Below are positions 13,096 through 16,277 of a stretch of 64,000 bases of DNA, piece by piece. Position 1 is the stretch's first letter. The number at the start of each line of letters is the position of its first letter. The translations under genes were made by a program, and so were the position numbers. The stretch is from Bacteroidota bacterium (GTDB taxonomy: Bacteria; Bacteroidota; Bacteroidia; UKL13-3), in the NCBI GenBank assembly GCA_027488905.1, contig JAIYAT010000035.1:62001-126000 (forward strand). Direction: 5' to 3'. Under the pieces are notes generated by a model, which was not told the origin of the DNA, did not search any database, and saw only the letters and a program-made list of their open reading frames with translations.

Positions 13096-13695
13096 TTAAT
13101 TCATTTTAAATAAAACCAAAGGTTCAGCATATTCAGCTAATAGTAAGAGCTCTCTATTAATTTTTGAATTCCATTTCATTTGGTTTGTGAAATTCAATGA
13201 ATGATTTGTTTCTTCATCATATTGTAGTTGAACTTTTTCACATTCTTTTTTATAAGAATCAAAAATAGCTGCTACTTCTTTGTTTAATTTGGTTGTGTTT
13301 ATATTTTTATTCTCAAGAAGTTTTTTACGCATTTTTCTGCAATATATTTCAACTATATCAAAGTGTCTGCGTTCATGGTCCAATGCTGTATCTGAAGCTG
13401 TTTTTGTCCATGCATCATTACACAAGAAAACAGCTACTATTTTTACTCCTAAACTATCTTTTGAAATCTGTACCGAATTTAACTTAATAGCGTATGCTAT
13501 TTCTGCCGCATGTTTTGAATAGATCTTGGGTTTCCCTTTAAAATCAGACCAAATAATGTCTCGCTCACCCCATGTGATTTCAGATTCAGCAGGTTTAAAA
13601 CCGCCAAAAACAAGGATGAGTAAAAAAGCTAAACTGGACAATTGCCAAAACTTAAACTTTCTTAATCCATAAAAAATGCTATCAAGTTTGTACAT
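13096..13695 (-). CDS. DUF922-like putative secreted Zn-dependent protease
   Basis: A 199-residue protein with an N-terminal hydrophobic segment (about residues 18-32: WQLSSLAFLLILVFGG), acting as signal anchor or signal peptide. The soluble domain contains LDHERRHFDI, an HExxH zinc-site motif at His107, Glu108 and His111. It matches the DUF922 family of predicted periplasmic metalloproteases as I remember it. The C-terminal third is lysine-rich and helical. A third zinc ligand could not be identified by eye and activity is unproven. It stands alone between the T9SS cargo gene and tRNA-Ser. Confidence 0.7.
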   Translation of the reverse strand: MYKLDSIFYGLRKFKFWQLSSLAFLLILVFGGFKPAESEITWGERDIIWSDFKGKPKIYSKHAAEIAYAIKLNSVQISKDSLGVKIVAVFLCNDAWTKTASDTALDHERRHFDIVEIYCRKMRKKLLENKNINTTKLNKEVAAIFDSYKKECEKVQLQYDEETNHSLNFTNQMKWNSKINRELLLLAEYAEPLVLFKMN

Positions 13696-13761
13696 CTATG
13701 TGAATATAATAGTTTTTCAAGAATGTTGCTTGAACAATATTTCACTTAAACGTATTTGAAT

Positions 13762-13798
13762 AAAAAAACCGATTAGATGTTTCTAATCGGTTTTTTTA
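13762..13798. terminator. Bidirectional intrinsic terminator
   Basis: A hairpin with arms CCGATTAGA / TCTAATCGG flanked by a run of A on the left and T on the right. It lies between tRNA-Ser and the DUF922 gene, both on the minus strand, and would end the tRNA transcript. Confidence 0.85.
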
Positions 13799-13833
13799 TT
13801 CTTGGCATTCGCTAAAGCCTTAACAAACTATGG

Positions 13834-13918
13834 CGGAGAGTGAGGGATTCGAACCCCCGGACCTACTACAGTCAACAGTTTTCAAGACTGCCGCAATCGA
13901 CCACTCTGCCAACTCTCC
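13834..13918 (-). tRNA. tRNA-Ser (anticodon UGA)
   Basis: The minus strand folds as a class II tRNA with a long variable arm. The acceptor stem pairs GGAGAGT with ACTCTCC, the anticodon loop CTTGAAA gives UGA, and a GGTTCGAATCC T-arm is present. The three bases that follow (13831-13833) read CCA, so the 3' end may be encoded. A consensus promoter box ends only 4 bases before the mature 5' end. Confidence 0.96.
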
Positions 13919-13922
13919 GGTG

Positions 13923-13953
13923 CAAAAGTAAGCTTCTGAGTTTTTTCTGCCAA
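13923..13953 (-). promoter_or_regulatory. Bacteroidota-type promoter for tRNA-Ser
   Basis: On the minus strand TTG (13951-13953), 20 bases, then TACTTTTG (13923-13930): an exact match to TTG-N19-21-TAnnTTTG. It fits in the 47-base window between the upstream terminator and the tRNA, so it is the only promoter available there. Confidence 0.8.
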
Positions 13954-13965
13954 ATAAAAATCAAA

Positions 13966-14000
13966 AAAAAACCCGATAAGCTAAGCCTATCGGGTTTTTC
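13966..14000. terminator. Intrinsic terminator of the M43 metalloprotease gene
   Basis: A-rich tract, arms ACCCGATA / TATCGGGT around a 9-base loop, and a T-tract. It lies 16 bases past the protease stop codon on the minus strand and separates it from tRNA-Ser. Confidence 0.85.
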
Positions 14001-14015
14001 TATATTATCTTACTG

Positions 14016-16277
14016 TTACTCAACCACTATTTTATGTGATAATTTGTTGCCTCCAACATTTAATTCAACAAAATATAGCCCTGAACGAAGATTCATGGTG
14101 TTTCTATCTAGCTCCAATTTCTGAATTCCAGCATTTTGGGTGCCACTAAATACGGTTCCCATTTCTTTGCCGGTAATATCATAAACCTTAATCAATACCT
14201 CTTCTTTGCTCATTAATTCATAGCTTATTTGTGTAGTATTGTTAAATGGGTTTGGCTGCGTAGTGAATTTTAAATTCTCAGCCAATAATTCTTGGCTCAA
14301 ACCTGTTGTTAAACCAACACGTACATTGTCAATATAAAAGTTATTACCACCAGCATATTCAAATTCAACTTTGAAAAGAACATTATCTGTTTTCGGTATA
14401 GCATTTCCATTAATTCTTACCAATTTCCATTTCGATTTATCAGATGGTATAAAATCTATGGTACTAGCCAAAGTTCCAGCTGTTCCTGTGCCTATTGTCG
14501 AAATAGCGCTGCTTCCAACTGTTGACCTAGTTTGCCATGTTTTACCGCAATCTATAGAAGAATAAACTCTTAATTGTTCCTGTGTGTTGCCACCACCAAC
14601 ATTTGCGCTCAAAGTGCCTTGGGCAAATGCATAATAAAATTCAAAGTAAGGATTTGTAATGCCTGTAAAATCAAAACTAGGCGAAATTAATGAAGAAACT
14701 GTTCCTACAGATGACAAAGCATTAAAAGGATCTCTCAACAATCGCATACTAGCATTGTTTTCATACGAAATTGGAAAACGTGTAAATTGATTTTTTGGGT
14801 TTTCATGAACAAATTTCCATCCTTTTTCTTTCCAATTATTTTGATACCACCAATCGGCCGTGTAATTATCCTTTGGTAAATTAGCCGATTTTGGTTGTAT
14901 AGTTACATAATCATTTAATACAGTTAATGTAGTTCCGTTCGGTCCTGTTACTTTCAAGGTTACATCATAAGTTCCTGGTGCGTCATACTGAATTTGAGGT
15001 GGGTTCAAACCAGTAAATGTTGAAGGTGTGCCACCTTCAAAAGTCCATTCATGAGTGCTAATAGTGCCTCCATAAGAAAAATTTAGGAAACTAATTTTCT
15101 GACCAGCACAAGTAACAGGAGTTTGAGTATTAAAAGCTGCTACTGGCGGACAAGTTGCAGGTCCATCAATTATACCTGTAAATCGTAAGTTTTCTTCTGA
15201 CCAAAGTGTCTTGCGAATATCATTCAAAACCTTGTGCATACGTGCCTTTTGTTCTAAAGTAAACATGTTACTTGCACAATTTCCAATAAAATAATCCATG
15301 TAAGCTTCTTGTAAATCTGGTCTATCTGGCTTTTCAGTTGAACAAGTATTGAAACTTTTATTGTTACAACGATTGCGTAATGGCTCGGTAGAACTTGGAT
15401 TAAAGTATGTAGGAGGAGTATCCATTAAACCATCTCCATCTAACCCGCAACTGTCTGTTGAAATCTGGAAAGGATGATATAAACCTAACCAATGGCCAAC
15501 TTCATGGGTTGAGGTTGTTACATTAGGCGTTTGTCCTGGTTGAGAAGTTCCTGTGTTTCCAAACTCATTATGAATAACCATGATACCATCTGTTGAAGCT
15601 CCGCCTCCAAATCCAAATGGAAATTGAGCATACCCAGCTATACCGATAGAATTTCCTCTATTAATGGTTCTAACAACCCAAATATTAAAATAACGCTTAG
15701 TGTCCCAAACACTAGTTTTCTTTAAATCATCATTACCTTTATTTGTTAAAGGAGTATGAATTCTAACTATACCATTAGTACAATTCCCTTGTGGATCTTT
15801 TTTTGCTAATCTAAATTCAATTTCTGCATCAGCAGCTAAGTTTTTATAATCATAATAAAAACTATCAGTACTTTCAGGGCTTGCCTTGAACCAACCTGCT
15901 CTGCGATTTACTGTATCATTAACATTATTTCTAAATGACTTATTTAAAAAATTAATTTCACTTAAAACTTGAGCCTCACTAATGTTTTCACTACCATTAT
16001 TATGGAAAACATGCACTACAACAGGAATAATGTACTTTGGAGCCGCTTTTTTACCAAGTTGTTGATTTGTTTTGTAATCCTCTGGTTTATAAGTTGCCTG
16101 AAACTGTCTGTAATCAGCTTCAAATTTAGCTTTGGCATCTTTAATTGAAGGATTCTGTTTGATAAGCGTTTCTAAATGTTCGTCTGTACCGCAGCGGTGT
16201 TGCTGGGCCATCACTACGTGGCCACTTATTGCCAGCGCACCAATCAGTAATAGTTTTTTCATATTTAGCCTTTTCAT
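14016..16277 (-). CDS. Secreted M43 (pappalysin-like) metalloprotease, T9SS cargo
   Basis: A 753-residue exported protease. Order: signal peptide (MKKLLLIGALAISGHVVMAQ, from the second Met), propeptide-like region, then a zinc metalloprotease domain. Its motif HEVGHWLGLYH has the metzincin form HExxHxxGxxH (His258, Glu259, His262, His268). A PKD-like module follows (EWTFEGGTPSTFTG), then a jelly-roll-like region (YTADWWYQNNWKEKGW), then a T9SS sorting domain (TQPNPFNNTTQISYEL to SHKIVVE). It probably degrades extracellular proteins. The ATG at 16262 is an alternative start; the candidate promoter at 16286-16314 would leave a 20-base leader for it but only about 5 bases for 16277. Confidence 0.9.
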   Translation of the reverse strand: MKRLNMKKLLLIGALAISGHVVMAQQHRCGTDEHLETLIKQNPSIKDAKAKFEADYRQFQATYKPEDYKTNQQLGKKAAPKYIIPVVVHVFHNNGSENISEAQVLSEINFLNKSFRNNVNDTVNRRAGWFKASPESTDSFYYDYKNLAADAEIEFRLAKKDPQGNCTNGIVRIHTPLTNKGNDDLKKTSVWDTKRYFNIWVVRTINRGNSIGIAGYAQFPFGFGGGASTDGIMVIHNEFGNTGTSQPGQTPNVTTSTHEVGHWLGLYHPFQISTDSCGLDGDGLMDTPPTYFNPSSTEPLRNRCNNKSFNTCSTEKPDRPDLQEAYMDYFIGNCASNMFTLEQKARMHKVLNDIRKTLWSEENLRFTGIIDGPATCPPVAAFNTQTPVTCAGQKISFLNFSYGGTISTHEWTFEGGTPSTFTGLNPPQIQYDAPGTYDVTLKVTGPNGTTLTVLNDYVTIQPKSANLPKDNYTADWWYQNNWKEKGWKFVHENPKNQFTRFPISYENNASMRLLRDPFNALSSVGTVSSLISPSFDFTGITNPYFEFYYAFAQGTLSANVGGGNTQEQLRVYSSIDCGKTWQTRSTVGSSAISTIGTGTAGTLASTIDFIPSDKSKWKLVRINGNAIPKTDNVLFKVEFEYAGGNNFYIDNVRVGLTTGLSQELLAENLKFTTQPNPFNNTTQISYELMSKEEVLIKVYDITGKEMGTVFSGTQNAGIQKLELDRNTMNLRSGLYFVELNVGGNKLSHKIVVE

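Follow-up and report, generated by a model that had tools for sequence, protein, structure and literature searches.

What is the 5' end of the primary transcript of tRNA-Ser(UGA) in this bacterium? In bacteria, the 5' ends of tRNAs are generally attributed to RNase P, which removes a leader. In the 64,000-nucleotide stretch of DNA that we analysed (the window), the promoter stands so close to the tRNA-Ser(UGA) gene that there may be no leader to remove.

Promoter and surroundings of tRNA-Ser(UGA)

The sequence-only reading of the locus had described a perfect promoter whose -7 box ends 4 bases before the tRNA 5' end, and a terminator just upstream. Both are present as described. With ARAGORN boundaries for the tRNA, the minus strand reads exactly TTG (13953-13951), 20 bases of spacer, TACTTTTG (13930-13923), CACC (13922-13919) and then G1 of the tRNA (13918). 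The last base of the box is thus 4 bases ahead of G1, an arrangement that we call gap 4. The features of the locus are as follows.

13831..13918, minus strand: tRNA-Ser(UGA), from ARAGORN and the sequence; G1 is 13918 and the encoded CCA is 13833-13831
13923..13930, minus strand: -7 box TACTTTTG of the Bacteroidota primary sigma factor, an exact and conserved match to TAnnTTTG
13951..13953, minus strand: -33 element TTG (inside TTTG), a sequence match with a 20-base spacer to the -7 box
13919..13922, minus strand: discriminator CACC, the 4 bases between box and tRNA, from the sequence
13918, minus strand: predicted transcription start (+1), identical with mature G1, from the published box position and the RNase P RNA calibration
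13965..14001, minus strand: terminator-like hairpin and U tract that belong to the upstream gene and directly precede the promoter, from the hairpin scan
14016..16277, minus strand: upstream codirectional ORF of 753 aa, read by eye without a family search
13762..13797, no strand: palindrome with flanking A and T runs downstream of the tRNA, read directly and absent from the hairpin scan listing

The hairpin with its U tract at 14001-13965 is one found against a mean of 0.3 in shuffled sequences. The 753-aa ORF upstream of it resembles a secreted metalloprotease that carries a PKD-like domain and ends in a type IX secretion tail, and the palindrome downstream of the tRNA is likely a bidirectional terminator. 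The two elements expected of a Bacteroidota primary sigma promoter, -7 TAnnTTTG and -33 TTG at about 20 bases, are both present. However, chance would yield about as many copies of the full pattern TTG-N20-TAnnTTTG: the window has 3, and shuffled sequences have 2.8 on average. We therefore rejected the promoter pattern by itself as evidence, and the case rests on the position of the box and on the conservation of that position.

Comparison with a sister species (G009, locus L357) over 13666-13900 shows full identity through the 5' half of the tRNA and for about 130 bases ahead of it, while the neighbouring 2.8 kb are about 94% identical. The 3' half of the G009 tRNA-Ser(UGA) has several differences, and no alignment is obtained for the intergenic DNA that follows directly. 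The comparison may reflect recombination or integration at the 3' end of the tRNA gene.

Box position across relatives and across tRNAs

Two homologue searches covered 60 and 148 genomes, some common to both. We read 117 loci (L027-L143), 57 of them best matches taken first and 60 picked to spread over families, and counted 104 tRNA-Ser(UGA) genes at 103 loci; the 14 other loci were other tRNAs. Given this best-match and then hand-picked sampling, the fractions describe the sample and not the class. Among 80 tRNA-Ser(UGA) genes of the same class, 54 have a relaxed box (TAnnTT[TC]G) at gap 4 (24 genes) or gap 5 (30 genes), and none of the 80 has one at gaps 0-3 or 6-9. A near-consensus box occupies one of these first two positions (gap 4 or 5) in three further genes. 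Boxes at other positions were found at 10, 11 or 17 bases in 6 genes and at 31-36 bases in 15 (two boxes per gene are possible). The relaxed box occurs 129 times in 128,000 window positions, a rate that predicts about 0.16 boxes at gap 4 or 5 among 80 genes, where 54 are seen; this comparison gives no P-value since related genes are not independent. The placement of the box is far from chance.

The arrangement was found in 16 of 22 sampled families. Both gaps occur within one family in three cases: f1 (16 genes with gap 4 and 17 with gap 5), f25 (1 and 4) and f26 (2 and 1). It is absent in 23 of the 80 genes, namely all 15 of f27, all 3 of f21, one each of f2, f14, f15 and f30, and a same-genus gene with a degraded box (L041); the genes read from families f27 and f21 thus include no case. 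Outside the class, a consensus box at gap 4-5 was found in 0 of 24 genes and a near-consensus box in one (L137). Hence, the arrangement is not needed for tRNA function. In Chryseobacterium and one other large family, gaps are mostly 10-36 bases.

A further set from named organisms was fetched by tRNA sequence alone, blind to the promoter, and comprised at least 119 loci with 120 genes counted. Among the matches listed in this set, gap 4 or 5 was found in 46 of 120 genes, gap 12 in one, and no box within 12 bases in 73. The gap 4/5 records among the matches listed come from Mucilaginibacter, Pedobacter, Desertivirga, Sphingobacterium, Chitinophagaceae MAGs and two of three Flavobacteriales MAGs. 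The 73 boxless genes among them come from Chryseobacterium, Elizabethkingia, Epilithonimonas, Amniculibacterium, one Weeksellaceae MAG and one Flavobacteriales MAG, and have a longer leader in common. We take all these genera to belong to the class Bacteroidia. Gap 4 is also seen in two MAGs labelled Chryseobacterium gleum (L162, L202), but in no other Chryseobacterium record that was counted; the two may be mislabelled.

Three side observations concern the same comparison. In L030, L084, L144 and other Chryseobacterium loci, the leader of tRNA-Ser(UGA) is some 30 bases long and conserved, and a small inverted repeat can be made out in it by eye. A Pseudopedobacter MAG carries two copies of tRNA-Ser(UGA), one with gap 4 and one with gap 12 (L181, L246), which makes a natural comparison pair. 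In two genomes outside the class (L122, L140), a serine tRNA with anticodon CGA has a TAnnTTCG box at gap 5 and gap 4, respectively; these are perhaps independent cases.

We then characterized the promoter itself. Of 224 genes, 100 have the arrangement; two with fewer than 50 upstream bases were dropped, and the other 98 were dereplicated to 64 sequences (<75% identity over 45 bases), with two ARAGORN calls that started one base early (L166, L190) shifted. Gap 4 is found in 33 of the 64 and gap 5 in 31. The letters of the box are fixed by how this set was selected, but those of the -33 element and the spacer are not. TTG at a spacer of 19-21 bases is present in 43/64 sequences versus 5/64 for spacers of 5-7 and 4/64 for spacers of 11-13, and TTG stands directly before the box in 14/64. 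The -7 box and a T/G-rich element some 20 bases ahead of it hold most of the information, and the remaining spacer is poorly conserved. Primary sigma promoters of Bacteroidota are described as TTTG / TAnnTTTG in two papers (PMC9723704, PMC7366714). Both boxes and their spacing are alike here: the promoter is an ordinary one, and only its placement on the tRNA is unusual. The base at -1 is C or T in 64/64 dereplicated tRNA-Ser(UGA) genes versus 96/142 other tRNAs. Since other serine tRNAs also favour C at -1 (19/28), this pyrimidine is not diagnostic and was dropped as an initiator signature.

Is the placement particular to this tRNA? ARAGORN called 31 tRNAs around 32 Rfam hits in the genome of the window, leaving one hit (L024) uncalled. 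Among these 31, only tRNA-Ser(UGA) has a gap-4 box. The next nearest box is 11 bases from its tRNA (TAnnTTTG) or 10 bases (relaxed form), and 14 of the 31 have no relaxed box within 70 bases. We widened the survey to four genomes by adding one of the same family (G019) and two of other families of the class (G061 and G091). The comparison set comprised 142 other tRNAs, that is, ARAGORN calls on stretches around Rfam hits with identical repeats removed. Across these four genomes, a relaxed box within 5 bases of the tRNA was found in 0 of the 142. The nearest relaxed box lies at 6-9 bases in 7, at 10-20 in 43 and beyond 20 in 38; there is none in 54, a group that takes in tRNAs within tandem clusters. 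With one mismatch allowed, one of the 142 has a box at gap 4 or 5 (a tRNA-Ala, L322). In G061, two tRNA-Ser(UGA) copies with diverged upstream DNA both have gap 4.

Some of the other tRNAs deserve mention on their own account. Arg-CCU, Arg-CCG and Leu-CAG have boxes 6-7 bases from the tRNA, each in a single genome (L311, L299, L341), and leaders of about 2-3 bases are predicted for them. Among other tRNAs, a small hairpin close to the predicted 5' end is a frequent feature of the leader (e.g. CCC..GGG). For leaders of 12-40 bases, the hairpin was matched by at most 5 of 100 composition shuffles in 7/10 cases in the genome of the window and in 20/41 in the three others. tRNA-Ser(UGA) is predicted to have no leader, hence no place for such a hairpin. 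In tRNA-Asp of the same window, the sequence-only reading had seen a 20-base leader; 20 is in fact the distance from box to G1, and the same rule predicts a leader of about 16 bases.

Predicted start of transcription and alternative readings

Two calibrations bear on where transcription starts. For Flavobacterium psychrophilum, TAnnTTTG is placed at -12 to -5 in one study (PMC9723704). This position makes the start the fifth base after the G of the box, which is G1 at gap 4. The second calibration comes from RNase P RNA genes, which were matched in 37 of 41 genomes; we read the best 30 loci, from the genome of the window and its relatives. This calibration assumes that in bacteria the transcript of the RNase P RNA gene begins with the first base of the RNA itself. 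A box was present in the searched zone at 27 of these best 30 loci and missing at 3. In 24 of the 27, a purine (21 G, 3 A) occupies the fifth position after the box, and the conserved RNase P RNA sequence (GCAAAA-like) begins, by eye, at the fifth base in 20. The distance from the box to a conserved anchor in the RNA, again among the best 30 loci, is 14 in 19/27, 15 in 3 and 16-20 in 5. These figures measure sequence conservation, not mapped starts. The published box position and the RNase P RNA genes agree on the fifth base, and each of them predicts that transcription starts at G1.

At gap 5, G1 is the sixth base after the box, as the corresponding base is in a few RNase P RNA genes (L384, L387). 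In gap-5 relatives, the modal start would fall on the pyrimidine at -1, which is a point against a start at G1. On the other hand, the distance is limited to two neighbouring values, 4 and 5, while the leaders of other tRNAs vary in length. A leader that RNase P removes may have many lengths, and a restriction to 4 or 5 is as expected if the start must fall on G1. The earlier proposal of a start at G1 or one base from it thus gains backing from the conserved gap, the published box position and the box distance of RNase P RNA genes.

An alternative is a very short leader: transcription would start 1-4 bases upstream of G1, for example at A13921 or, in gap-5 relatives, at -1, and RNase P would trim the extra bases. 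In the window, no purine other than A13921 stands between box and G1; among gap-4 relatives, G is frequent at -2 (23/33); and RNase P-processed precursors with short leaders are indicated for E. coli (Bowden et al. 2017, going by the title). However, A13921 is the second base after the box and not the fifth, as published, and a cleaved leader should tolerate many lengths, while near the gene only gaps 4 and 5 occur. We consider this reading unlikely, though it deserves to be kept in view.

It is far less probable that the distance is irrelevant to 5' maturation and was simply inherited by descent, or is kept because the C-rich discriminator serves to regulate the promoter. The sequences are indeed related, and C-rich stretches after the box are also seen in many tRNAs with leaders. 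Yet gaps 4 and 5 both occur within f1, f25 and f26 and gaps of 3 or 6-9 are unseen, a pattern that points to coupling between the start and G1. We give equally little credence to the idea that the close box is minor and that RNase P releases most tRNA-Ser from longer transcripts, made by polymerase that passes the upstream terminator. The gene upstream does run in the same direction, but a terminator-like hairpin separates it from the tRNA, and the close promoter is conserved over families with differing upstream DNA.

Overall, we suggest that tRNA-Ser(UGA) is probably a conserved, isoacceptor-specific leaderless tRNA, started at G1, in bacteria that possess RNase P. The original observation was right apart from small corrections, and its interpretation, a start at or near G1 with perhaps no need for RNase P, is supported by the comparisons and enlarged by them.

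RNase P, a possible 5'-triphosphate and known leaderless tRNAs

Genome-wide loss of RNase P could be rejected, as genes for both the RNase P RNA and the RNase P protein were found in the genome. Any bypass would therefore be confined to tRNA-Ser(UGA). In the scheme that we favour, tRNA-Ser(UGA) would form a transcription unit by itself, with a promoter positioned to make RNA polymerase start at G1. The primary transcript would have no 5' leader, or at most about one base in gap-5 relatives, and its 5' end would not need RNase P; the other tRNAs would have leaders or sit in clusters. The 5'-triphosphate would be either kept or removed by another enzyme.

In such a transcript, pppG1 would be paired with C72. 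Enzymes of the RppH type require the 5' bases to be unpaired, and seryl-tRNA synthetase depends on the long variable arm, not on the 5' phosphate. For these two reasons, the triphosphate might persist and be tolerated. In tRNA-His, a 5'-triphosphate lowers charging (PMC10100707). Removal may also be possible, as a Nudix search of the same genome gave 5 matches. We set these aside as evidence for an RppH-like enzyme: five matches cannot show which of them acts on RNA. A broader proposal, which we put forward tentatively and hold to be somewhat doubtful, is that much of the Bacteroidia, although equipped with a normal RNase P, has kept tRNA-Ser(UGA) independent of it through a start at G1. The functional tRNA would then carry a 5'-triphosphate because the paired G1 is poorly accessible to pyrophosphohydrolases, making this a lineage-wide, isoacceptor-specific bypass.

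The closest parallel is Nanoarchaeum equitans, in which, as one paper describes (PMC10100707), RNase P is absent, all tRNAs are leaderless with 5'-triphosphates, and promoters are strictly placed at 26 or 27 nt. Alike are the two promoter distances one base apart (26/27 there, 4/5 here), the predicted start at the first tRNA base and, with such a start, the lack of a leader. In contrast, the bacterial case concerns one tRNA and a bacterial promoter, with the start predicted from sequence, in a genome that encodes RNase P. A fixed promoter distance is thus common to both, but RNase P is present here and the other tRNAs do not have the arrangement (0/142 with a box at 5 bases or less). With RNase P RNA and protein both encoded, tRNA-Ser(UGA) does not belong to an RNase P-free system, although the way of working would be alike.

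Two further systems invite comparison. E. coli reportedly has precursor tRNAs with short leaders that RNase P matures; a very short distance from start to mature 5' end in a bacterium is the likeness, but the leader predicted here has 0-1 bases, and its conservation extends over many families of a class for a single isoacceptor. Eukaryotic selenocysteine tRNA is transcribed from +1 by RNA polymerase III, carries a 5'-triphosphate and has a special tRNA structure. It resembles the present case in being serine-acylated and leaderless in cells that have RNase P; it differs in its polymerase and special structure, and we claim no relation by descent.

Among the matches listed in our search of the open literature, we found no report of a conserved leaderless bacterial tRNA; subscription papers were mostly outside its scope, so absence from print is not established. 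The tRNA 5' ends of P. acnes are ascribed to RNase P (PMC3848588), and processing sites are recorded at tRNA 5' ends of E. coli (PMC4681348).

If the proposed start at G1 is true, a single tRNA would be leaderless across many families, and bacteria would be able to bypass RNase P gene by gene. This would raise the question of why serine(UGA) was chosen. It would also make tRNA-Ser(UGA) a native internal control for RNase P depletion.
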